The notes under the pieces are model-generated. The model was not told the origin of the DNA and ran no database searches. It saw only the letters and a program-made list of their open reading frames with translations. This document shows, piece after piece, positions 379-10,603 of a DNA stretch of 10,715 nt. Source of the stretch: Campylobacteraceae bacterium (GTDB lineage Bacteria > Campylobacterota > Campylobacteria > Campylobacterales > Sulfurovaceae); assembly GCA_026985495.1 (NCBI GenBank), contig JALSQJ010000141.1:1-10715 (forward strand). Reading direction: 5' to 3'. Position 1 is the first letter of the stretch. The number at the start of each line of letters is the position of its first letter. The position numbers and the translations under genes are program-made.

Positions 379-391
379 ATTATATACTCCT

Positions 392-409
392 TAACACTTA
401 GGTAACACT
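392..409 (+). promoter_or_regulatory. Predicted OmpR/PhoB-type operator, copy 1
   Basis: TAACACT at 392-398 and again at 403-409 form a perfect 7-bp direct repeat with a 4-bp spacer (TAGG), that is an 11-bp period. This is the arrangement bound head-to-tail by OmpR/PhoB winged-helix dimers. A copy differing by one base lies at 6022-6039 before the cytochrome operon, at the same distance from the -10 and the start codon. The site replaces a recognisable -35, as in PhoB-activated promoters, so activation is more likely than repression. The likely ligand is the response regulator at 7789-8418 (inference). Confidence 0.65.
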
Positions 410-417
410 TCTTAGTG

Positions 418-423
418 TAAAAT
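418..423 (+). promoter_or_regulatory. -10 element of promoter for the 456-6031 operon
   Basis: TAAAAT, one mismatch to TATAAT, starts 9 bases after the last base of the direct-repeat operator. No convincing -35 hexamer is seen; the operator occupies that position. Transcription would start near 430, giving a leader of about 26 bases. The equivalent position in the second promoter is a perfect TATAAT. Confidence 0.6.
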
Positions 424-444
424 TAACGTGTCAATCTAAGAATA

Positions 445-448
445 AGGA
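445..448 (+). promoter_or_regulatory. Ribosome binding site selecting a TTG start
   Basis: AGGA lies 7 bases before TTG 456-458. The block AGGAAAATATA-TTG matches AGGAAAATATA-ATG before the cytochrome gene at the same distance from the operator, which supports TTG 456 as the real start. Confidence 0.6.
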
Positions 449-455
449 AAATATA

Positions 456-1373
456 TTGGAAACAAATTTAAATATAGAGTATCAGCAGAGTTGGCTTGAA
501 AAAATCAACATCGCCTATATTGCTTTTCTCCTCCTATTTTTTGCAGAGACAAGTTACTATCTCTTGATACTTCAAACAGGTATTGTTGATTACTTTCACT
601 CAAATATACAACAAATTTGGACAATTCCAATTGGTGGAGTTTTGGGGATTTTTTCTATATTTAAGATTAAAAATCGTACAGAGAGTGTTACTTTAGCACT
701 CTTTATACAGACACTGTTAATGTTTATCTACCCACACTATACACTCTTTACCCTTTTTATATTGGGGTATTCGAGTGGTTTAGTTGCTCCCTATCTTATC
801 TATCAACTCCAAGATAAAAAAGAGACGTTATTTATTTTAGCTGGGGCATATCTTTTGGGTACATTTGCCATTCATATTGCATCAGAACATCGAGGGTTAT
901 TGGGAATTTTATTGAGTCTTATTGCTCTACTCTCTTCCTATTTTACACTACCTCATCAGCAAAAAAAAGAGGATACACTATCTATACAACGTTATCTCCC
1001 ACTCTTTTTTTGGTTACTTTTAGATGCAACACTTTTTGAAATATTGGCAAGAAGTAGTATGGATATTTGGAGAGATGAACACTTTACCATTACTATTGCA
1101 CTCTCACATTTACTGGGTCTATATATTGGGTACAAATTGTATAATTTTAACCACAATAATAGAGTAATCTTACTACTATTTGGACTCTCTTATCTATTTT
1201 TTATCCTACATTTTTCTTATCTATTGGCAATCGTTTATCCTATTGTTATCTCCTATTACAACCTTATTGTACTTAAGTACTTTATGCGTTTGTCTTTTGG
1301 TCAGTTAACAATAGCTTCATTTTCTCTATGGGTCTCATCAGGTATGGGACTCTTTATAGCATTACATATATAA
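456..1373 (+). CDS. Polytopic membrane protein, function unknown
   Basis: A 305-residue, strongly hydrophobic protein with roughly ten membrane helices (about 18-38, 50-67, 76-92, 95-115, 124-143, 147-165, 180-198, 211-229, 237-255, 258-275 and 283-304; one or two of these boundaries are uncertain). Only short loops connect them. The general look resembles a shortened major-facilitator-type carrier, but I see none of the diagnostic loop motifs, so I assign no family. The start is TTG at 456, backed by an AGGA 7 bases upstream and by the aligned start of the second operon. It is the first gene of the six-gene operon, directly after the operator-promoter at 392-423, and the YceI-like gene follows 14 bases after its stop. 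A transport or membrane-assembly role is only a guess from position. Confidence 0.8.
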   Translation: METNLNIEYQQSWLEKINIAYIAFLLLFFAETSYYLLILQTGIVDYFHSNIQQIWTIPIGGVLGIFSIFKIKNRTESVTLALFIQTLLMFIYPHYTLFTLFILGYSSGLVAPYLIYQLQDKKETLFILAGAYLLGTFAIHIASEHRGLLGILLSLIALLSSYFTLPHQQKKEDTLSIQRYLPLFFWLLLDATLFEILARSSMDIWRDEHFTITIALSHLLGLYIGYKLYNFNHNNRVILLLFGLSYLFFILHFSYLLAIVYPIVISYYNLIVLKYFMRLSFGQLTIASFSLWVSSGMGLFIALHI

Positions 1374-1378
1374 AAGGA
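1374..1378 (+). promoter_or_regulatory. Ribosome binding site deciding the YceI start
   Basis: AAGGA lies 9 bases before ATG 1388-1390. It favours that start over the in-frame ATG at 1328, which would sit inside the preceding gene and push the signal peptide into the interior of the protein. Confidence 0.6.
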
Positions 1379-1387
1379 ATACCTATA

Positions 1388-1918
1388 ATGCGTTATCTAT
1401 TTATAACATTGATTACAACATTAGCACTCTTTTCAGCCAACTTATCGTTTGAAAAGGGGTCAGTTTTGGCACACACCTCTGTTTTTGGAGACAGTACCAT
1501 TAATCCATCAAGTTCAAATATTGTCTCTCATCTCACAATGAAAAAAGGGGATATATCCACACTCAAAGGTTCTGTTGAAGTCTCTCTAACCGATTTAAAA
1601 AGTGATAATAGTGAACGAGATGAACATATGTATGAGGCGATTGATACCAAAAAATATACCTCAACCACCTATACGATAAAATCAGTTTCCCAAAATAGTG
1701 CAGGAAGTTACAATGTCGAGGGGAGTTTAACACTTCATGGTATCACTAAAAACCTTCCTATTTTAGCAACCATTGCAACAAAAGGAGACCATGTTAACTT
1801 TAAAGGAAAAACATCATTTAAAATGAGTGATTTTGGCATTACCCCTCCAAAACTTCTTTTTTTAACGGTACGAGACCTCTTAGAGATGAAAATTAATACA
1901 ACCTATAAAGTACAGTAA
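1388..1918 (+). CDS. Secreted YceI-family lipid-binding protein
   Basis: The chosen start at 1388 gives 176 residues with a clear signal peptide (MRYLFITLITTLALFSA, cleavage near residue 17). An upstream in-frame ATG at 1328 would hide it. The mature part shows the YceI pattern: an opening strand with FEKGSVLAHTSVFGDSTI, a central region (GSVEVSLTDLKSDNSERDEHM) matching the 'seG.i.vd..Sl.tgn..RD.hl' block, then GSLTLHGITKNLP and the closing FKMSDFGITPP followed by EMKINTTYKV. YceI proteins form an extended lipocalin-like barrel that binds long isoprenoids or similar lipids in the periplasm; the true ligand is unknown in most cases. It lies 8 bases upstream of an ABC permease gene, which suggests, but does not prove, that the pair handles a hydrophobic molecule. 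The family call is firm, the role is not. Confidence 0.85.
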   Translation: MRYLFITLITTLALFSANLSFEKGSVLAHTSVFGDSTINPSSSNIVSHLTMKKGDISTLKGSVEVSLTDLKSDNSERDEHMYEAIDTKKYTSTTYTIKSVSQNSAGSYNVEGSLTLHGITKNLPILATIATKGDHVNFKGKTSFKMSDFGITPPKLLFLTVRDLLEMKINTTYKVQ

Positions 1919-1926
1919 AGGGTACT

Positions 1927-2997
1927 ATGTTTAAATCACTACTCTATTATAGATATAAGACAGCACTAATTTTACTCTCTGCTGTTACAGCAATTACTTC
2001 AATTTTTATGATTACCTCCCTTAGTGGGGGGATTGTGAGCATGTACTCCAATATGCTTAAGACCGATGGCGATATTATTCTTACTCAAAAGGGTGTTGCA
2101 GATACTTTTTTTAGTGATGTTAATCGTACCTTGATGGATAAAATAAAACCTATCAAAGGGGTCAAAGAGGTTTCAGCCGTTATTGTCGGTGCAGGAGCTA
2201 TTGGTACACTTCCTATTGCAGGTATTTATGGCGTTAGCACAAATCGTTATCCTCTTTACCATTTAACTTATGGCAACTATCCTAAAAAGTGTTCAGAAGT
2301 AATGATAGGAGAAAAGATAAACAGTATATTAGGAGAGCCTAAGCAGATAAAAATTTTCAATAAACCTTTTAATGTTACAGGAGTATTTAAAAGTAAAATT
2401 GGATTTGAAAATGGAGGGGTGGTTATCCCTATTGAGAGTGCGAGTGCTATTTTTCATAAAAGTTCCTCTTTCCTTCTCCTATCTTTAGATAATTTGGAGC
2501 AATCAACAGAAGTTATCTCCTCTATCAAGACCATAAGCAATCAAGTTGATGTGAAAAAGACAACTGATTTTATTGACAACTACAACCAGTTTAAAATCAT
2601 TAAAGTATCAGGTGCTGTTATCGCTTCTATCTCTTTTTTTATGGGTTTTTTAGCCATTGTGAGTATTATGAGCATTGTGATTAATGACCGTAGATATGAA
2701 TTTGGTATTCAACGAGCCATGGGAATTTCTAAAGTTAAGATTATTCTATCTGTGATGATGGAGGTGGTAACCCTTATTTTGATTGCTTTTATTCTTGCCT
2801 ATATCATCAGCTACTATCTTTTAGAGTTTTTAGAACATATTGATAAGTTTCAAGGTTATTTAAGTGGAGAGATTGACCTCTATTTAGCACTTATTGTGTT
2901 AGGTGGCTCTATTGTTATGTCTATTGTGGGAGCATTTATCCCTGCCTTTATTGCGTCAAAAGTTGACCCCATTATATTAATAAATCAAGGAGAGTAG
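1927..2997 (+). CDS. FtsX/MacB-type ABC transporter permease
   Basis: A 356-residue permease with the standard MacB-type layout: one helix near the N-terminus (about 14-36), a large periplasmic domain (about 37-225) with the IKGVKEVSAV segment typical of the MacB periplasmic core, then three helices (about 228-252, 270-297, 316-345). The cytoplasmic turn NDRRYEFGIQRAMG (about 253-266) is the hallmark FtsX motif (R..E.gilRAlG) that contacts the ATPase. Such proteins are mechanotransmission transporters that move lipoproteins, peptides or lipids from the outer leaflet or periplasm. Its partner ATPase starts 3 bases after the stop. There is no MacA-type adaptor or LolA/LolB in the window; the adjacent YceI protein is the only candidate periplasmic partner. 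The substrate is unknown. Confidence 0.88.
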   Translation: MFKSLLYYRYKTALILLSAVTAITSIFMITSLSGGIVSMYSNMLKTDGDIILTQKGVADTFFSDVNRTLMDKIKPIKGVKEVSAVIVGAGAIGTLPIAGIYGVSTNRYPLYHLTYGNYPKKCSEVMIGEKINSILGEPKQIKIFNKPFNVTGVFKSKIGFENGGVVIPIESASAIFHKSSSFLLLSLDNLEQSTEVISSIKTISNQVDVKKTTDFIDNYNQFKIIKVSGAVIASISFFMGFLAIVSIMSIVINDRRYEFGIQRAMGISKVKIILSVMMEVVTLILIAFILAYIISYYLLEFLEHIDKFQGYLSGEIDLYLALIVLGGSIVMSIVGAFIPAFIASKVDPIILINQGE

Positions 2998-3000
2998 AAG

Positions 3001-3609
3001 ATGTTAGAGGTTAGAGATATATCACATTTTTATGGCAAAGAGAAAATTTTAGATAATATTAGTTTTAAACTACCTAGAGGAAGTTTTACCATATTAACAG
3101 GAGAGAGTGGTAGTGGAAAGACAACACTGCTAAGCATTGTATCGACACTCTTATTACAGAGTGAAGGAACAATTATTTTTCACAATACCCCTAAATGCTC
3201 TATAGATACCATGCGAAATAGACATATTGGATTTATCTTTCAATTTCACTATCTAATAGAACACTTAACCGTTATGGAAAATATAAAAATGGTTACCAAA
3301 AAATCAAAAAGAGAGATTTTAAAACTTCTTGCTACCTTGGATATTGACACGTTAGCCCACCGATACCCCTCTCAAATATCAGGAGGACAACGCCAAAGAG
3401 TAGCTATTGCTCGTGCCATTGTCAATGAGCCTAAATATCTTTTTGCTGATGAACCAACAGGAAATTTGGACTCTAAAAATTCAAAAATAATCTTTGATAT
3501 TTTACGCTCAATCAAAGCAACAACATTAGTTGTAACCCATGATAGTTCACTCATATTAGAAGATGACCGAATACTTACCATGAGAGATGGTCAACTTATT
3601 AAAGGATAG
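3001..3609 (+). CDS. LolD/MacB-type ABC transporter ATPase
   Basis: A complete 202-residue nucleotide-binding subunit. Walker A is GESGSGKT (34-41), the Q-loop glutamine is Q81 in FIFQFHYL, the signature is SGGQRQRVAIARA (127-139), Walker B runs YLFADEP (146-152) with catalytic E151, the D-loop is GNLD (154-157) and the switch histidine is H180 in VVTHD. All catalytic residues are intact. The FIFQFHYLIEHLTVMENI segment is typical of the LolD/MacB/FtsE group that works with FtsX-type permeases. A GGAG near 2990, inside the end of the permease gene, precedes the ATG. It powers the permease encoded immediately upstream at the cytoplasmic face of the inner membrane. The last codons carry the ribosome binding site for the next gene. 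Confidence 0.93.
   Translation: MLEVRDISHFYGKEKILDNISFKLPRGSFTILTGESGSGKTTLLSIVSTLLLQSEGTIIFHNTPKCSIDTMRNRHIGFIFQFHYLIEHLTVMENIKMVTKKSKREILKLLATLDIDTLAHRYPSQISGGQRQRVAIARAIVNEPKYLFADEPTGNLDSKNSKIIFDILRSIKATTLVVTHDSSLILEDDRILTMRDGQLIKG
3602..3606 (+). promoter_or_regulatory. Ribosome binding site for a TTG start
   Basis: AAGGA at the very end of the ATPase gene lies 5 bases before TTG 3612-3614. No ATG with a better site is near, so translation of the haem-copper-oxidase-like protein probably starts at this TTG and is coupled to the ATPase gene. Confidence 0.5.
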
Positions 3610-3611
3610 CC

Positions 3612-5147
3612 TTGTTAAACAAAACCATCAAATTACATTTTAAAATCTCCTCTATTTTTCTAATTTTAGCACTCTCATTTGGATTCTTATACTCCTTAAA
3701 CCTTTTAGGATATATGACCAATCTACTCTTACCTACTTATACGTTGAGTTTACACATCTCTTTAATGCTCTATGGATTTCCTGCACTAATGCTCTCCATG
3801 CTTCCTTTTGCTCTTTTTGACAAAGATGGATTAGTAGATAAGCAAGGAAATCACTATCTGCATCTCTATTTTATAATATGGTATATCTTTCTTATCTTTA
3901 TGATAATCTCACTCCTATTTGGAACAGAGCGTGGCTTGGTCTTTTATGATTATCCCTATGCACTCAATTTTCTCTTGGCATTCTCTGGCGTTTTTTATCT
4001 GTTAAGTATCTTAAAATATATACGCCACTACGAGGTAAAACCTTTATGGGTCAAGGTATCGTTGTGGAGTGTGATAGTTTCGCCTTTTCTACTCATTGTT
4101 TTAATGAACCCACATTATGGACAAGTAGAGAAGATGATGTTAGGCCCTCATGGAGACAACACCTTAGGCATGAGTTTTGCTCTATTGGTTCTATACTATC
4201 TAGTCATTAAACTCTACTCTCCCATTGAATTCAAAGCCCGTTTTAATTGGCTATGGATAACCCCTCTTGCCTTTTATATCTTATCTGTTCTCTATCGTAT
4301 TTTGATTGGAAAATTAAGCTATAACCAAGAGTGGTTTTTCCAATGGCTTACCTTTTTATATCTACCAACACTCTATTTTTGGTTCAAAGATGCCCAACTC
4401 TCTTTTAATAAAAATCTATTTCTCTCTATCTCGGCACTTGCTTTTGCCTTTGTAGATGTTGAGGGGAATATTCTCTTTATCCCCTCTATTAGACATCTAT
4501 TTCATCGTAACGATTTGGTCGTGGGTCATGCCCATTTAGCTGTAGGGTTATCAATGCTATTTCTAAGTTTTGCTGTGGTAAAACGCTACTTTACCATTCA
4601 GAAATCACTTATTATCACCTTGGCTTCACTCCTTATCTTAATCGCTTTAGCACTAACGATTAGTGGATTGGGTCAAGCAGGACTTATCTCTTTAGAGACC
4701 CATACCATGTGGATATTACGCTCACTCTATGGATTTATTTTTTTACTTATTATCCTAAAATTCTACAGCAAATATCTCAAAATCAGATGTCATAGTAAAA
4801 TAGATTGTTATCATTTTATCGGCTTTCTCTCTGATGGTATAGGTGGATTTATACTATTACTTTTTGCTCCACTTCTGTATGATTGGCTAGGCTTAAGTTA
4901 TCAGGAGGGGTATCAATCGGTTGTCTATGGCTTTATGATGTCTGTAGGATTGATACATCTTTTAGGCTATTTAAAGCCTTTATGGCAAAACCCTCTAGCC
5001 TTGGCAACCATTATAAGTAGAGTAGTTGTTTCAGCTCTCTTTTTTGCACTCTATAGCAATGGAACGTTAACATGGATAGCGATGGTTGTCTCTGGCTATG
5101 ATTTACTCTATGCCTTAATCTATATTATATTTTTCTATGAGATATAG
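3612..5147 (+). CDS. Haem-copper oxidase subunit I-like membrane protein with C-terminal four-helix extension
   Basis: A 511-residue protein with about 16 membrane helices. The first 12 fit the cytochrome oxidase subunit I fold: helix II carries H48 (SLHISLMLYGF), and helix X carries the H-x-H pair H306/H308 in VVGHAHLAVGLSM, matching the VVAHFHYVLSMG block that binds both haems in classical oxidases. R370 (MWILRSLYGF) opens helix XII, where haem-propionate arginines occur. The copper/iron-B ligands are not convincing: H180, just before helix VI, could be one, but helix VII (about 213-233) has no HH pair. It may therefore bind haem without being a normal oxidase; an NnrS-like or unusual NO-reductase-like role is possible. 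Residues about 401-511 add four helices ending in a YDLLYALIYIIFF segment, an apparent fusion. The start is TTG, 2 bases after the ATPase stop. The fold call is moderate, the function unknown. Confidence 0.6.
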   Translation: MLNKTIKLHFKISSIFLILALSFGFLYSLNLLGYMTNLLLPTYTLSLHISLMLYGFPALMLSMLPFALFDKDGLVDKQGNHYLHLYFIIWYIFLIFMIISLLFGTERGLVFYDYPYALNFLLAFSGVFYLLSILKYIRHYEVKPLWVKVSLWSVIVSPFLLIVLMNPHYGQVEKMMLGPHGDNTLGMSFALLVLYYLVIKLYSPIEFKARFNWLWITPLAFYILSVLYRILIGKLSYNQEWFFQWLTFLYLPTLYFWFKDAQLSFNKNLFLSISALAFAFVDVEGNILFIPSIRHLFHRNDLVVGHAHLAVGLSMLFLSFAVVKRYFTIQKSLIITLASLLILIALALTISGLGQAGLISLETHTMWILRSLYGFIFLLIILKFYSKYLKIRCHSKIDCYHFIGFLSDGIGGFILLLFAPLLYDWLGLSYQEGYQSVVYGFMMSVGLIHLLGYLKPLWQNPLALATIISRVVVSALFFALYSNGTLTWIAMVVSGYDLLYALIYIIFFYEI

Positions 5148-6031
5148 CAACCATTTAGATAGCTCTAAAGCATTATCTCTGGTTAATGTAATAAAGTGGC
5201 AACTTTTTAAATCACGCCATTTCAGACAAGAGACCTCATCTCTATTAGTAATGAACCAAAAAGATAAGCTTAGTAGCAAAAAGGATTTTATCTGTTGGCT
5301 AGGACATGCCTCTTTTTTGATTCAAATTGATAAAAAACGTATTCTTCTTGACCCTGTATTAGGAGATATTCCATTTTATAAACGATTAATCCCCTCTCCC
5401 TACTCACACCAAGAGTTAGGAGAGATAGATTATATATTTATCTCTCATACACACTATGACCATTTCGATAAACCCTCCATTCAAAAGCTACTTGATAAAA
5501 ATGCTACATTTATTACCCCCTTTAGGCATGGAGTATTATCTTAAAAAGATAGATAAAAATATTAACGTAAAAACTTTTGATTGGTATCAATCACTAAGTG
5601 ATGATAGCGTAAAACTCTCTTTTGTTCCTGCAAAACATTGGGGAAGACGAGGTCTATTGGATACCAATAGAGCATTATGGGGAGGATTGGTTATAGAATC
5701 ATCACAACAATCTATCTACTTTTCAGGCGATACAGCTTATGAACAACATTTCAAAGAGATTGGGCTAAAATATAAAATAGATTATGCACTACTCCCTATT
5801 GGTGCATACTCTCCTAGAGAGGTTATGTCACACAATCATCTAAATCCACAAGAGGCATATCAAGCTTTTTTAGATTTAAGAGCTAATAGCATTATACCCA
5901 TGCACTATGGAACATTTAAATTAACTGATGAACCACTAGATGAACCTGAAAAATGGATTGATACTATCTTTAACACTTCATCTCAACTTTTTAAGCTACA
6001 TGTTGGGGAGGTTACTATGATTAACAGTTAG
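5137..6031 (+). pseudogene. Frameshifted metallo-beta-lactamase-fold hydrolase (NAPE-PLD/UlaG-like)
   Basis: Two overlapping frames together make one family member of about 297 residues. The first (5137 onward) gives WLGHASFLIQIDKKRILLDPV and the metal-binding HTHYDH (H104, H106, D108, H109). After ATFITP at 5518-5520 the family pattern 'fivPLG' continues only in the +1 frame as LGMEYYLKK, then AKHWGRRGLLDTNRALWGG, YFSGDTAY, LLPIGAYSPREVM, H-LNPQEA and MHYGTFKLTDEPLDEP. The break is at C5T3 (5516-5523), one base too many; unshifted, translation stops at 5544. Both halves keep family motifs, so this is a recent mutation, an assembly error or, less likely, recoding. Family members hydrolyse phosphodiester or amide bonds (NAPE-PLD cuts N-acyl phosphatidylethanolamine); the substrate here is unknown. 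ATG 5137 overlaps the previous gene by 11 bases. Confidence 0.82.
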
Positions 6032-6039
6032 GTAACACT
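6022..6039 (+). promoter_or_regulatory. Predicted OmpR/PhoB-type operator, copy 2
   Basis: TAACAGT (6022-6028) and TAACACT (6033-6039) form a direct repeat at 11-bp period with the same TAGG spacer as copy 1. Over 20 bases (6021-6040 against 391-410) only one base differs. The site overlaps the last codons and stop of the hydrolase gene, so it sits partly in coding sequence. Its repetition at an identical distance from a second promoter is the main evidence that it is functional. Confidence 0.68.
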
Positions 6040-6047
6040 TATTGTTT

Positions 6048-6053
6048 TATAAT
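6048..6053 (+). promoter_or_regulatory. -10 element of promoter for the cytochrome operon
   Basis: A perfect TATAAT starts 9 bases after the operator's last base and 38 bases before ATG 6086, both distances identical to the first promoter. The start site would be near 6060. The -35 position is taken by the operator. No terminator hairpin is visible between the hydrolase stop and this promoter, so read-through from the first operon is possible. Confidence 0.7.
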
Positions 6054-6085
6054 AGTACCATAATTTATATAAGCAGGAAAATATA

Positions 6086-7780
6086 ATGAACATAAAACAT
6101 ATTGTAACGATTGGGTTAATAGTACCTTTTTTAGTGGCATGTGGGAGTAGTAACACAACCAATAATAGAGAAGCAGTAAACCAAGGTACTCAGACAAATA
6201 GTGATGGAACAATCACTAATAAAAGCTATATACTAACTGCATGGAATGATTTAGGAATGCACTGTATGGACGGAAATGATTTCTCTGTCTTCTCTATTTT
6301 GCCTCCTTATAATAATCTACATGCACAACTAAAAAAGAGAGATGGTTCACTCATTACAAGTGGAGTAACATTGAGCTATGAGGCTATAAAAGGTGTTGAT
6401 GGTAAGTTAAATAGTTCAAGTTCTGACAAAACAAACTTTTGGGACTATAGCAATAGACTATTTCCGAACTCAAATCTCAAAACAGATGTTGGGTTAACAG
6501 GTAATAGTGTCCCCTCAACAACACCCCATAATTTAACATTCAATAAGACAAATCAGTGGTTTGAAGCAGAAGGGATACCATTAACTCCCTATAATAATGA
6601 TGGCTCTAAAAACTACTATCCACTTGTAAAAGTAACAGCTAAAGATAGTTCAACTCATCAAGTTTTAGCAACAGCTCAAGCTGTTTTACCAATTAGTGAT
6701 GAGATGGATTGTAAACGATGTCATGCTAGTAACTCTCTTGCACCAAAAGCAAAACCAACTAGAGGTTGGGTAAACAATAGTAATCCTGAAAAGGACTTCA
6801 AATATAATATTTTACGTTTACACGATGAACGTATGCCAAATGCTGTCAAAGACAATAGTGTAGAGCTAAAGAGCAAAGGATACAAATATAATATTGCAGG
6901 ATTAGAGGCAACAGCAAAAGGAGGAACACCTATACTATGTGCAAGTTGTCATAGCTCCAATGCTCTACCAAACACAGGAGTAACAGGAGTCAAACCATTT
7001 ACACAATCGATACATAGTTATCATGCTAAAGTTATTGACCCATATACAAACCTCTCAATGGATAGTAGTAAAAATAGAACAGCATGTTATGCTTGTCATC
7101 CAGGTGCTAGTACGAAATGTCTAAGAGGTGCTATGGGAGATGCAAAAGATAGTAATGGAAATAGTGTAATGCAGTGTCAAAGTTGTCATGGTTCTATGTC
7201 AAATGTAGGCGAATTAAAGCGTATCGGTTGGTTGCAAGAGCCAAATTGTCAAGCGTGTCATCATGATGGTAAAGAGGAGCATTCAGCTATTGACCCACGA
7301 ACTAATACATTACGACACTCTATAGATACACGTTTTGCAACAAATCCAGACACACCTGCAAAAGGGTTTAGTCTCTATAGATTTAGTAAGGGACATGGAA
7401 ATCTTCAATGTGAAGCGTGTCATGGTTCTCCTCATGCTATCTACCCTGCACATAAAGCTGATAATAAAATGAGTATAGGTATTCAAGGACATGCAGGAAC
7501 AGTTGCAGAGTGTACAGCATGTCATACAACATCACCATATACCGTTACAGGTGGACCACATGGAATGCACCAAGTAGGAAGTAGTTGGGTTAGAAACCAT
7601 CAAAATGTAGCAGAACATAATTCAGCACAATGTAAATCATGTCATGGTAAAAACTATAGAGGTTCAACTCTATCTAAGATGTGGAAAGATAGAGTTTTAA
7701 ATGGGAAACAGTTCTTAAAAGGTCACAAAGTGAGCTGTTATGACTGTCACAATGGACCAAATGGTGGAGATGATGATTAG
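6086..7780 (+). CDS. Nine-haem c-type cytochrome lipoprotein
   Basis: A 564-residue exported lipoprotein: signal peptide to residue 18 and lipobox LVAC with acylated C19. G20 follows rather than the inner-membrane retention Asp, so outer-membrane sorting is plausible. Nine CXXCH haem sites occur at residues 209, 285, 334, 364, 388, 442, 476, 516 and 551. Residues about 47-200 are haem-free and start with the striking ILTAWNDLGMHCMDGNDFSVF, followed by FSILPPYNNLHAQL; I recall this module from uncharacterised deltaproteobacterial multihaem cytochromes. A CHPG-(3)-KCLRGAM segment (337-350) with an extra cysteine, C345, also recurs in that group. The many extra histidines suggest bis-His haems. 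It should carry electrons in the periplasm or at the outer membrane. It has its own promoter and leads the operon with the two-component genes; AGGA lies 7 bases before the ATG. Confidence 0.9.
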   Translation: MNIKHIVTIGLIVPFLVACGSSNTTNNREAVNQGTQTNSDGTITNKSYILTAWNDLGMHCMDGNDFSVFSILPPYNNLHAQLKKRDGSLITSGVTLSYEAIKGVDGKLNSSSSDKTNFWDYSNRLFPNSNLKTDVGLTGNSVPSTTPHNLTFNKTNQWFEAEGIPLTPYNNDGSKNYYPLVKVTAKDSSTHQVLATAQAVLPISDEMDCKRCHASNSLAPKAKPTRGWVNNSNPEKDFKYNILRLHDERMPNAVKDNSVELKSKGYKYNIAGLEATAKGGTPILCASCHSSNALPNTGVTGVKPFTQSIHSYHAKVIDPYTNLSMDSSKNRTACYACHPGASTKCLRGAMGDAKDSNGNSVMQCQSCHGSMSNVGELKRIGWLQEPNCQACHHDGKEEHSAIDPRTNTLRHSIDTRFATNPDTPAKGFSLYRFSKGHGNLQCEACHGSPHAIYPAHKADNKMSIGIQGHAGTVAECTACHTTSPYTVTGGPHGMHQVGSSWVRNHQNVAEHNSAQCKSCHGKNYRGSTLSKMWKDRVLNGKQFLKGHKVSCYDCHNGPNGGDDD

Positions 7781-7788
7781 AGAAAAAT

Positions 7789-8418
7789 ATGATAAAAATA
7801 CTACTACTAGAAGATGACCCTCTTTTAAATGAGACCCTTAAGCTCTTTTTGGAGCGAGAGGGGTATCTTGTCGATGTTGCACTAAATATAGAAGAGTCTG
7901 AGGAGTTTACCTTTCGTAACAGTTATGACCTATATCTTTTTGATATAAATCTTCCTCAAGGTAATGGACTTGAACTTTTAGAGTATCTGCGAAATGCCCA
8001 AGACAATACAGATACTATCTTTATTACAGCATTAGTAGATATTAACTCTATTGCAAAAGGGTTTGATTTGGGTGCTATTGATTATATCAAAAAACCTTTT
8101 AATCCAAAAGAGCTTCTTATTCGTCTTAGAGCAAAATTTAAAACAAACTCCATATCTTATGGAGATATTGAATATGATGAGGTAAACGACATCATTAAAA
8201 AGGCTGGAGAGATTATTGATATTGGTAATATTCAACACAAGATATTTATAAAACTACTTAAAAACCTTGGTAAGATTACCCCTAAAGTTGAACTATATGA
8301 ACTCTTTGAACACGAATCAGATAATGCCTTAAGAGTTGCTCTTACTAAAATAAAGAAGCGTTTAAATATCAATATAAAAAACATTAGAGCTAGAGGATAT
8401 ATGCTTGAAAAGATATGA
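7789..8418 (+). CDS. OmpR/PhoB-family response regulator
   Basis: A 209-residue two-domain regulator. The receiver (1-115) has the acidic pair E8/D9, phospho-acceptor D52 in YLFDINLP, T80 in FITA and K102 in YIKKPF, so it should be phosphorylatable. The C-terminal winged helix (about 123-207) ends with the recognition helix SDNALRVALTKIKKRL and the wing IKNIRARGYML, the standard Trans_reg_C ending, slightly shorter than usual. It begins 8 bases after the cytochrome stop without its own promoter, so it is made with the cytochrome and would regulate itself. The downstream sensor kinase is its likely partner. The two 11-bp-period direct repeats in the window are suitable targets; no other OmpR-type regulator is present. 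Family call firm, target assignment inferred. Confidence 0.93.
   Translation: MIKILLLEDDPLLNETLKLFLEREGYLVDVALNIEESEEFTFRNSYDLYLFDINLPQGNGLELLEYLRNAQDNTDTIFITALVDINSIAKGFDLGAIDYIKKPFNPKELLIRLRAKFKTNSISYGDIEYDEVNDIIKKAGEIIDIGNIQHKIFIKLLKNLGKITPKVELYELFEHESDNALRVALTKIKKRLNINIKNIRARGYMLEKI
8392..8397 (+). promoter_or_regulatory. Ribosome binding site for the kinase TTG start
   Basis: AGAGGA lies inside the end of the regulator gene, 7 bases before TTG 8405-8407. The next in-frame ATG is far inside the protein, beyond the first membrane helix, so the TTG is the likely start and translation is coupled by a 14-base overlap. Confidence 0.55.
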
Positions 8419-9448
8419 AAAAGAGTCTCTATTAAAAAACTTTATTGTATTTTTTATACTCCTAGAGACACTTTTGATACTACTCTTTTTACAACGTTAT
8501 CATAACTTTATACAAGATTACAAAGAGAATATCTATAAAGATATGGAAGTATGTAGCTATAGTATGAAATGTAAAAAATATAAGATAGATTTTACTCCAA
8601 AATCAAAAAGTAAAACAAATATATTATATGAAGAGAATGGGCTATATAGCTACTTTACTATACCTAAATCTAAAAAGTTTAATATTAAACTATACTATTC
8701 ACAAGACTCTTTAAAAGAAGATAAAGATAAAATAGTTAAAAAAATAGTGATTAACTTTGTTGCGATGAGCATACTGCTATTTGGTGTAGCACTATTTTTT
8801 ACACTATATAGTCTAAGACCAATTAGAGAAGCACTACAACTAAATGATGAGTTTGTCAAAGATATTCTACACGATTTTAATACACCCATTAGCTCAATGA
8901 TTCTAAATATTGAGATGTTAGAGCCAAAAGAGAGAGAGAACTTTTTTATAAAACGAGTAGAACAAGCTATTAACTCCATTATTTTACTTCAAGACAATCT
9001 AAAAAGCTTTTTAAACCTATCTCCTACAAGTAACAGTAATATAGATATATCTAAACTACTCAAAGAGCGTTTAGAGTTTATCTCTGCTCTCTATCCAAAT
9101 ATAAACTTTGAGTTGATAGATAAAGAACCGTTTACCTTTTATGGTAACCAAGATATGCTATGTCGTATCTTTGATAATCTTTTGAGTAATGCCTCTAAAT
9201 ATAATAAACCTAAAGGATTGGTCAAAGCTATTATTATGGAAAATAGCATCTCAATTATAGATACAGGAAAGGGTATCTCAAATATCAAAAAAGTATTTGA
9301 TAGATACTATAAAGAGCAAGATAGAGGCATCGGTTTAGGACTTCATATAGTCAAAAAATTGAGTGATGAGCTAAATATCAATATAGAAATAGAGTCTAAA
9401 TTAGGAGAAGGTACAACTGTAACCTTACAGTTTGCAATAATATCATGA
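8405..9448 (+). CDS. Sensor histidine kinase
   Basis: A 347-residue membrane kinase. Helix 1 (about 13-30) and helix 2 (about 114-136) flank a small periplasmic sensor of about 83 residues. That loop is very lysine-rich and has two cysteines, C50 and C56, in a C-x5-C pair. There is no clear HAMP domain; a short linker leads to the dimerisation helix with phospho-accepting H156 in LHDFNTPISS. The ATPase domain has the N-box DNLLSNASKYN (257-267), the G1 box IIDTGKGIS (284-292, D286) and the G2 box GIGLGLHIVKKL (308-319). All catalytic boxes are present. It overlaps the regulator gene by 14 bases and ends in an ATGA overlap with the next gene. The signal is unknown; the cysteines allow redox or metal sensing (inference). 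Confidence 0.92.
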   Translation: MKRYEKESLLKNFIVFFILLETLLILLFLQRYHNFIQDYKENIYKDMEVCSYSMKCKKYKIDFTPKSKSKTNILYEENGLYSYFTIPKSKKFNIKLYYSQDSLKEDKDKIVKKIVINFVAMSILLFGVALFFTLYSLRPIREALQLNDEFVKDILHDFNTPISSMILNIEMLEPKERENFFIKRVEQAINSIILLQDNLKSFLNLSPTSNSNIDISKLLKERLEFISALYPNINFELIDKEPFTFYGNQDMLCRIFDNLLSNASKYNKPKGLVKAIIMENSISIIDTGKGISNIKKVFDRYYKEQDRGIGLGLHIVKKLSDELNINIEIESKLGEGTTVTLQFAIIS

Positions 9449-9804
9449 TAAAAAAGATTCTATCTACTATAATAACTCTCTCTCTACTACTCTATGCTAA
9501 TAGCATTGATGATGCGATTGAAGCTATACAAAATGCACCCCAAGAGGAGAGATTTAAACTAATGAATGATTTTAAAAAGAGATTGATTGAACTACAAGAG
9601 GAGGATAGATTAAAAGCGATGCATAAGCTTATAGTATCACATAACAAAGAGAACAACAATAGCGACCAAAACATAACCCAAGAACCTGTTGAAGATAAAA
9701 CTCATATTCTAAATGAACAGATAGAGTTACAAATAGAAAACAGTATAGAAAGTGGTTTAGTTGCAGATATTCAATCACAACAAGAGAGTGAAAATGATGA
9801 TTAA
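9445..9804 (+). CDS. Small exported helical protein, function unknown
   Basis: A 119-residue protein with an N-terminal signal peptide (MIKKILSTIITLSLLLYANS, cleavage near residue 18) and no further membrane helix. Residues about 20-66 are charged and predicted helical (DDAIEAIQNAPQEERFKL and a following EEDRLKAMHKL stretch), possibly a coiled coil. The rest is acidic, rich in Gln, Asn and Glu, and probably disordered. I do not recognise a family. Its ATG shares bases with the kinase stop (ATGA) and its end overlaps the start of the barrel gene, so it is translated together with both. A periplasmic accessory role, for instance as a chaperone for the neighbouring barrel or a modulator of the sensor, is possible but unsupported. 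Confidence 0.72.
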   Translation: MIKKILSTIITLSLLLYANSIDDAIEAIQNAPQEERFKLMNDFKKRLIELQEEDRLKAMHKLIVSHNKENNNSDQNITQEPVEDKTHILNEQIELQIENSIESGLVADIQSQQESENDD

Positions 9805-10603
9805 ACGAATAATCATCTTAATAGTAGTAACATACAACTCTCTTGTTGCAATGCAAGATAGTGATTTAGATGGTGTCTCTGATAATTTAGATAGATGTCC
9901 TAAAACACCTTTTTTCCATCAAGTAGACTCTTTTGGTTGTAGTACAAAGATATTAACTATCCCTACTCAAAGTGATAACAACTCACTCTTTATAACAGCA
10001 GGATATGGATATAGTATAAGTGAAGATTTATTAGGTCATCAAAAAGAACATATTGAAAATATTCAGATAAACTACTACCAAAACCGATGGAATTATGCGT
10101 TAAATACAGGGGTTTATCAATTAGGAGATAAAAATGGTGTCATAGATACAACCTTTAAAATAAATCATAGATTCTATCTCAATAAAGATATACGACTAAA
10201 CTTAGGAGCAGGAGTCAAATTTAATACTGATGATTTTGAAGGAGATAAAAGCGACTATATTTTAGATACCTCACTCTACTACTATCCTACCCTTAAACTC
10301 TCTCTATTTTCAAAATATAACTACACAATAATCAATGATAAAGAGAACAAAATAGCACTAACAAATAGCTATCTATTTAATATAGGCTTTGGATACTTTA
10401 TAACACCAAAATTTTACTCTAGCATATCCTATAAAAACAGAAAAAGTAAGTTTAGAAGTGAAGATACCTTAAATAGCCTCTCTTCTACACTATACTACCA
10501 ATGGAACAAAAAATGGTTTACAACACTACTCTATCAAGAGGATATATATGATGAAGATAGACATAGAGTTGTAAACTTTAAAATTGGGTTTAAAGTTTGG
10601 TAA
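9794..10603 (+). CDS. Outer-membrane beta-barrel with N-terminal thrombospondin type 3 repeat
   Basis: With the start at 9794 (or 9797, one codon later) the product is 269 residues with a signal peptide (MIKRIIILIVVTYNSLVA). An AAGAGAG at 9782-9788 supports these starts over the in-frame ATG at 9761, which would bury the signal peptide. Right after cleavage comes one thrombospondin type 3 repeat, DSDLDGVSDNLDRCPKTP, closing at VDSFGC; its aspartates bind calcium in known cases and its two cysteines may pair. The remainder alternates aromatic and polar residues in about ten to twelve amphipathic strands, and the chain ends in FKIGFKVW, with a terminal aromatic suited to BAM recognition. In OmpA-like proteins such repeats follow the barrel; here the repeat comes first and there is no peptidoglycan-binding domain. 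It is the last gene of the operon. Confidence 0.78.
   Translation: MMIKRIIILIVVTYNSLVAMQDSDLDGVSDNLDRCPKTPFFHQVDSFGCSTKILTIPTQSDNNSLFITAGYGYSISEDLLGHQKEHIENIQINYYQNRWNYALNTGVYQLGDKNGVIDTTFKINHRFYLNKDIRLNLGAGVKFNTDDFEGDKSDYILDTSLYYYPTLKLSLFSKYNYTIINDKENKIALTNSYLFNIGFGYFITPKFYSSISYKNRKSKFRSEDTLNSLSSTLYYQWNKKWFTTLLYQEDIYDEDRHRVVNFKIGFKVW

Follow-up and report, generated by a model that had tools for sequence, protein, structure and literature searches.

Two TAACACT direct-repeat promoters probably under one OmpR/PhoB-family response regulator in a Sulfurovum-like bacterium

The window analysed here, 10,715 nucleotides in length, is the whole of contig C141 (JALSQJ010000141.1) of a Sulfurovum-like genome bin (GCA_026985495.1), and all of the genes discussed below lie on its + strand. 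Two runs of genes in it are each preceded by a promoter, P1 or P2, in which an 18-bp direct repeat, TAACAST-N4-TAACACT, stands where a -35 element would be expected. Our results indicate that P1 and P2 are probably activator-dependent sigma-70 promoters of a single, self-activating regulon under the response regulator encoded at 7789..8418.

The operators of P1 (391..410, TTAACACTTAGGTAACACTT) and P2 (6021..6040, TTAACAGTTAGGTAACACTT), the latter overlapping the final codons of the gene upstream, are identical at 19 of 20 bases. The half-sites lie at 392-398 and 403-409 in P1 (TAACACT-TAGG-TAACACT, 11-bp period) and at 6022-6028 (TAACAGT) and 6033-6039 (TAACACT) in P2. Eight bases past the operator stands a -10 box, TAAAAT at 418..423 in P1 and TATAAT at 6048..6053 in P2, and the leader AGGAAAATATA can be read directly before both genes (445..455, with the ribosome-binding AGGA, and 6075..6085). 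The start codons, TTG at 456 and ATG at 6086, are both 38 bases from the start of the -10. Direct reading confirmed the details that an original prediction made from the letters of the window had set out, and it also bore out the claim that a direct repeat of 7 + 4 geometry replaces the -35: at spacers of 16-18 bases, the best match to TTGACA was 1/6 in P1 and 2/6 in P2. Neither promoter was among those listed by a generic sigma-70 scan. The class II arrangement, with no -35 and a site at constant distance from the -10, is thus found in the window, and it is supported by the offset counts in relatives given below.

The exact word TAACACT-N4-TAACACT was found 113 times, in 78 genomes, in a survey of 298 genomes of the order, whereas the same half-sites at 13 bp, with two extra bases between them, were found five times. 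This comparison is the decisive test of non-chance. Out of the 113 matches, 108 distinct sites were read, 106 of which fall outside open reading frames (ORFs) of at least 100 codons; four of the five 13-bp matches lie inside ORFs. The exact site is present in 52 of the 116 genomes with a strong match to the regulator (expectation value, E, up to 1e-40) and in 26 of the 182 others (Fisher p 7e-9, for genomes that are related and so not independent draws). At the 101 sites with a downstream ORF, its start lies 55-66 bases from the operator start in 60 cases and more than 100 bases away in 21.

The bin to which the window belongs amounts to 1.59 Mb in 262 contigs and is 79.75% complete, with 5.79% contamination. 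In this genome the 20-mer at up to three mismatches occurs at two places, P1 and P2, and at none when read backwards. With a -10 required at offset 8, P1 has no mismatch and P2 one, and two other places have three, against two for the backward pattern; with the -10 at offset 7, one site (contig C30, position 4641) has two mismatches and three others have three (P1 itself having three), against three backward. Operator plus -10 at zero or one mismatch picks out P1 and P2 only. Looser patterns do not stand out: at up to three mismatches the window holds five matches versus 3.81 expected, which is not significant, and at up to two mismatches the 18-mer occurs at 18 places in the own genome versus 28 backward, which is no excess.

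In support of a tie between this word and the regulator, we examined 100 loci around relatives of the regulator, 80 taken in rank order (884 kb) and 20 out of rank order, some of the latter (e.g. G078, G231, G240, G249 and G276) picked with a nearby site already known; loci and genomes are mutually related, and the counts are not independent draws. The 80 rank-order loci hold 11 exact TAACACT pairs at 11 bp (in 10 loci), whereas among the other spacings from 7 to 44 there is one pair each at 8, 19 and 22, two at 33 and none at the rest. The 20 further loci add six exact pairs at 11 bp and none elsewhere, for a total of 17 over the 100 loci. When one mismatch per half is allowed, the 100 loci give 56 pairs at 11 bp against 2-20 at other spacings (the 20 being at 33 bp), and control heptamers in these loci gave no comparable 11-bp peak.

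The site is also coupled to the -10. When a total of one mismatch is tolerated, 144 loci around relatives of the regulator and the cytochrome yield 68 sites; this set excludes the window, and some contigs enter it twice, from two collections. By the rule applied, none of these sites lies within a long ORF, and they merge into 54 distinct promoters. In 53 of them an ORF lies on the same strand within 350 bases. In 43 of the 54, a -10 matching at 5/6 or better stands 7 or 8 bases after the first pair, or a multiple of 11 bases further, and 11 are without one; the counts are 21 at offset 7, 10 at offset 8, 3 at 18/19 and 12 at 29/30, with 0-3 at every other offset. This stricter count was used in place of a lax test (4/6 at six offsets) that passes 100 of the 108 exact sites and is non-discriminating, since it also passes 23 of 30 loci of the backward pattern. 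Some promoters carry three or four half-sites in series (L035 4042-4090, L033 7124, L202 2192), and in such promoters the -10 tends to be displaced downstream by 11 or 22 bases. Measured from the regulator gene, sites are frequent at +1640 to +1694, just after the kinase gene, at -36 to -91, just before the regulator gene, and at -42 to -88 in divergent orientation; the rest are scattered in the 4.5 kb examined.

Phylogeny partly sharpens this link. In a quick tree of 120 regulators, that of the window belongs to a 21-member clade (SH-aLRT, the Shimodaira-Hasegawa-like approximate likelihood ratio test, 100), and for 12 of its members a site with no more than one mismatch lies within 4.5 kb; in L149/L038 (the same contig), L033, L034 and L056 of this clade it lies immediately 5' of the regulator gene. 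A de novo search for 6-mers repeated at 11 bp returned AACACT/TAACAC as the top word in this clade, where eight of the 21 loci have it against a background of about 0.3, and found it in nine of 16 loci of a second clade, some of whose members come from the out-of-rank loci. Other clades gave GTAACA (a third clade), GCTAAC and GTTCAC (29 members) and, weakly, AGGTAA (36 members). The GTTCAC repeats were not assigned as the operator of their regulator clade, as they are about 3-4.6 kb away from the regulator.

The original prediction also implied that the motif would be conserved upstream of orthologous operons; such conservation was seen before some relatives for P2 and was thin for P1. The first gene behind P2 (6086..7780, ATG start) encodes CYT, a multiheme c-type cytochrome lipoprotein with nine CxxCH motifs, and the site (up to two mismatches, 11 bp) precedes 15 of its 74 homologues with upstream DNA; eight other spacings before the same homologues gave 0-2 each. 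The site is found at 11 of the 20 cytochrome loci with a response regulator or kinase on the locus versus 4 of the 54 without. The first gene behind P1 (456..1373, TTG start) encodes the membrane protein TM305, which has no Pfam family. In the same-genus genome G329, the orthologue stands behind a site of one mismatch, TATACT following at offset 8 and the start 63 bases on. In L057 the site preceding TM305 is weak, with three mismatches, and that preceding the cytochrome has one. In G289 and L037, TM305 directly follows the cytochrome, which two-mismatch sites precede. Thin conservation at P1 suggests that TM305 entered the regulon recently, or left it often.

The protein encoded at 7789..8418 was predicted to be an OmpR/PhoB-class response regulator, and this is supported by several lines of evidence. 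It carries the receiver domain PF00072, whose E8, D9 and D52 are present in 120 of 120 regulator relatives, so that the phosphoacceptor Asp of such domains is conserved. PF00486 (Trans_reg_C) was absent from a Pfam scan of the window's own protein; at E up to 0.01 it was found in 32 of 33 aligned proteins, namely all 32 homologues (61-70% identity) and not that of the window. The winged helix-turn-helix is therefore seen via the aligned homologues, the structural model and a fold search. The AlphaFold model (mean predicted local distance difference test score, pLDDT, 88.5; predicted template modelling score, pTM, 0.58) shows a receiver fold plus a winged helix. The fold search returned full-length matches to OmpR/PhoB structures, the best of which include PhoP-DNA (5ed4) and CosR-DNA complexes, at whole-chain template modelling scores of about 0.4-0.57 and root-mean-square deviations of 8-17; these values are probably due to a different placement of the domains. 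Because the run from the cytochrome to the last gene has a single 8-base gap and otherwise only overlapping junctions, P2 very likely drives transcription of the regulator gene.

Several findings nevertheless weigh against assigning both promoters to this regulator. Nine of the 20 cytochrome loci with a response regulator or kinase score as misses: eight are without a good site (L041, L044, L045, L048, L050, L062, L066 and L067), and the ninth, L051, is missed by a wrongly picked start and has a one-mismatch site at 67. Among 28 more distant TM305 loci (about 35-43% identity), none of the 25 that could be assessed has a site at fewer than four mismatches, and TM305 as an order-wide conserved target of P1 is rejected beyond near relatives on this ground. 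For nine of the 21 own-clade regulators, some of them on short contigs, the search within 4.5 kb turned up no site of one mismatch or fewer. Because TAACACT sites occur in eight of the 29 members of the 29-member clade, and its top word GCTAAC overlaps the TAACACT half-site, the clade test is partly specific and the word varies with the regulator clade only in part. Finally, TonB/copper-type genes lie behind 51 of the 108 exact sites, some of these in genomes (G043, G096, G120, G153 and G175) where even the top match to the regulator is weak, with E about 1e-27 to 1e-32.

The last finding implies that another regulator should read the same word. Downstream families were assigned by Pfam scans of 50 proteins, extended by blastp at 1e-8 over the 108 sites. 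The 51 sites precede TonB receptors (28), NosL (12), ExbB (4), PCuAC (2), a TonB locus (2 sites) and, one each, DsbD_2, a multicopper oxidase and HMA. Loci at which the word stands before genes of this kind include L291, L293, L297, L381, L365, L123 and L111, as well as L286 (C30:4641 of the own genome), where a Cys-rich secreted peptide follows. Nineteen downstream proteins carry the plug signature CPNRMDPP, which is known from OprC/NosA-type copper receptors; the remaining TonB receptors may take other substrates. Other downstream families were DUF1104 (three proteins, one under the cut-off) and DUF2202 (five). It is likely that a TonB/copper uptake regulon of the order lies behind these sites, and this word, or one closely resembling it, is probably also recognised by a second regulator. 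What ties P1 and P2 to the regulator beside them is thus linkage and in part phylogeny, and not the word by itself. Of the single regulon originally predicted, the tie between the operator and relatives of the regulator stood, while the operator proved not to be private to it.

It might then be asked whether P1 and P2 are read, wholly or partly, by a different regulator of the OmpR family, present in this cell and recognising the same half-site, such as the TonB/copper one, in a larger regulon or under dual control. The TonB/copper-type genes behind nearly half of the exact sites speak for this, as does the presence of such a site in the own genome: C30:4641, with two mismatches when the -10 at offset 7 is counted in, lies 57 bases before a Cys-rich secreted peptide truncated by the contig end. 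It is divergent from a kinase gene, and the contig, 4.9 kb long, carries no gene for a regulator. Three of the four same-genus TonB/copper-type loci read (G000, G299 and G310; not G309) are likewise divergent from a kinase-like gene, and in these three no regulator gene was found beside it on the fetched stretch. The TAGG spacer of P1 and P2 also occurs in three TonB-receptor promoters. However, TonB/copper-type spacers are mostly lower in G/C than TAGG, which has two: AATT, AATG or AAAT make up 25 of the 51, and two or more G/C are found in nine of the 51 versus 31 of the 49 in the other set. Together with the enrichment of sites near regulator relatives and the 6-mer result in the own clade, this makes control by another regulator rather unlikely, although it is the alternative that survives best.

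We therefore return to control by the regulator at 7789..8418, for which regulator binding, phosphorylation, the activating sign and the signal are what we infer. The kinase would phosphorylate the response regulator, which would bind TAACACT-N4-TAACACT as a dimer arranged head to tail, its two subunits each on one half-site and one helical turn apart. With the -10 starting at -12, the operator would span about -38 to -21, such that the first half-site would overlap the -35 place and the second would lie between it and the -10. The bound dimer could then substitute for the missing -35 contact and switch on both operons, and, because the regulator and kinase genes belong to the P2 operon, the circuit would activate itself. 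The positive autoregulation of the original prediction thus finds support by position, in the P2 operon and in the site before the regulator gene of some relatives, and its sign is the inferred part. As to the signal, the sensor kinase (8405..9448, PF00512 and PF02518) has a periplasmic C-x5-C pair. Among 104 related kinases, C-x4-5-C is found in the periplasmic stretch of 80, including that of the window, and C-x5-C in 75, in a set that takes in some of the out-of-rank loci; the Cys pair is missing in clades that retain the same operator word. As a guess from the sequence, the pair may be a thiol or metal switch.

The same position of the operator, within the core promoter, would also suit repression, in which the bound dimer, reaching from the -35 place almost to the -10, would keep polymerase off. 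This is less probable still, and we regard it as quite unlikely, as P1 and P2, lacking a -35, would be weak unaided, and as extra half-sites accrue upstream while the -10 keeps to the 11-bp grid. In addition, Sulfurospirillum PceP, whose site overlaps the -35, is argued by its authors to activate (PMC7755780). That the likeness of P1 and P2 is due to chance or to a copied promoter without regulatory meaning, as the background-level counts at three mismatches in the window and two in the own genome might suggest, is highly improbable, given an expectation of 0.002 exact matches to TAACAST-N4-TAACACT per window (2000 first-order Markov simulations), the retention of the boxes while the bases between them diverged, and the surplus of the exact word at 11 bp, both in the order as a whole and around regulator relatives.

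The proposed activation by the neighbouring regulator has known parallels. The pho box of Escherichia coli PhoB is 18 bp long, replaces the -35 and lies about 10 bases from the -10; P1 and P2 share an 18-bp box replacing the -35 slightly upstream of the -10, and differ in the half-site and in a distance of 7-8, relatives included, rather than about 10. The site of Campylobacter jejuni DccR, WTTCAC-N6-TTCACW, is directly repeated across the -35 region with an 11-bp period; its half-site is TTCAC, that of P1 and P2 TAACACT, and a TTCACAAT repeat at 11 bp occurs elsewhere in the order. DccRS is described as having an OmpR-like regulator that boosts a few genes whose products are periplasmic or membrane proteins (PMC9449129) and as linked to MacABC and the periplasmic Cj0200c (PMC11365321); the window has a YceI and a MacB-like gene. 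Mycobacterium tuberculosis PhoP is a tandem dimer on its DNA, recognising motifs of 7 bp that a strict 4-bp spacer separates, and its hold on tri- and tetra-repeats is tighter (PMC4832192). The 7-bp motif, 4-bp spacer, 11-bp period and serial repeats are all seen here, as repeats for which a dimer is proposed; half-site, host and regulon differ, and binding to P1 and P2 is a prediction. PceP (RR2), also of the OmpR family, acts at direct repeats overlapping the -35, and before pceAB stands CTATA repeated with gaps of six, that is, in 11-bp steps (PMC7755780). Family, direct repeats over the -35 place and 11-bp steps are thus shared, whereas its published consensus is CTATW-N17-CTATW and it regulates tetrachloroethene respiration (PMC7755780). 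A literature search, with most subscription journals outside its coverage, found no account of the operator TAACACT-N4-TAACACT or of such control.

For the proposed two-component control of a multiheme lipoprotein in uncultured Sulfurovum-like bacteria, the operator, the layout of the promoters and the genes concerned are hereby defined. The exact word at 11-bp period is specific enough for order-wide prediction of targets, including NosL, PCuAC and CPNRMDPP-type TonB receptors. It would be tempting to go further, and we tentatively propose that TAACACT at 11-bp period is a shared operator word of the Campylobacterales. Several paralogous OmpR-type systems might then use one layout (operator, 7-8 bases, -10, and a start codon mostly 55-66 bases from where the operator begins), with an undescribed copper/TonB-dependent uptake regulon among them. 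The system of the window might in turn sense the periplasm via C-x5-C to control the nine-heme lipoprotein and the heme-copper-oxidase-like operon.

A further word of the same kind may exist. The backward pattern, TTCACAAT repeated at 11 bp, was rejected as a neutral control (57 versus 113 matches), as it itself looks like a second operator. Its 57 exact matches in the 298 genomes compare with four at 13 bp. Only eight of the 30 loci read (L406-L435, mostly at 1501) are in ORFs; in many a -10 stands at the matching offset, and the start codon is often about 58-62 bases on. Small secreted proteins lie downstream, nine of them in one family as judged by eye, and four of the 30 have CxxCH. The scarcity within ORFs, the -10 offset and the common downstream families are what make TTCACAAT look like a second 11-bp operator.

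The first gene run comprises TM305, a YceI-like periplasmic protein (1388..1918, PF04264), a MacB/FtsX-like ABC permease (1927..2997, PF02687 and PF12704), a LolD-like ABC ATPase (3001..3609, PF00005, with TIGR02211 under its cut-off), TM511 (3612..5147) and a split gene that ends at 6031. TM511 is a relative of heme-copper oxidase subunit I; it has no Pfam match of its own, and PF00115 (heme-copper oxidase I) is carried by some of the 120 homologues listed. Searches of solved structures gave no match for TM511 or CYT. The split gene (5137..6031), given its metallo-beta-lactamase-fold-like label by eye, consists of two overlapping frames, 5137-5544 and 5456-6031, and is a single frame in the same-genus relative G289 (L009); its state here is either a sequencing error or decay. 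In the second run, the cytochrome, response regulator and kinase are followed by S119 (9445..9804), an ORF for a small secreted protein that accompanies the regulator and kinase, and by an outer membrane protein (OMP)-like protein (9794..10603). For S119, conceivable as a CpxP/Spy-like feedback protein, the protein search returned one relative only, 93% identical. The OMP-like protein has a weak match to PF02412 (thrombospondin type 3) near its N-terminus, under the cut-off, and its relatives also sit after the regulator and kinase. At the start of the contig, a truncated ORF (3-224), helix-turn-helix-like by eye, is apparently unrelated to both operons.

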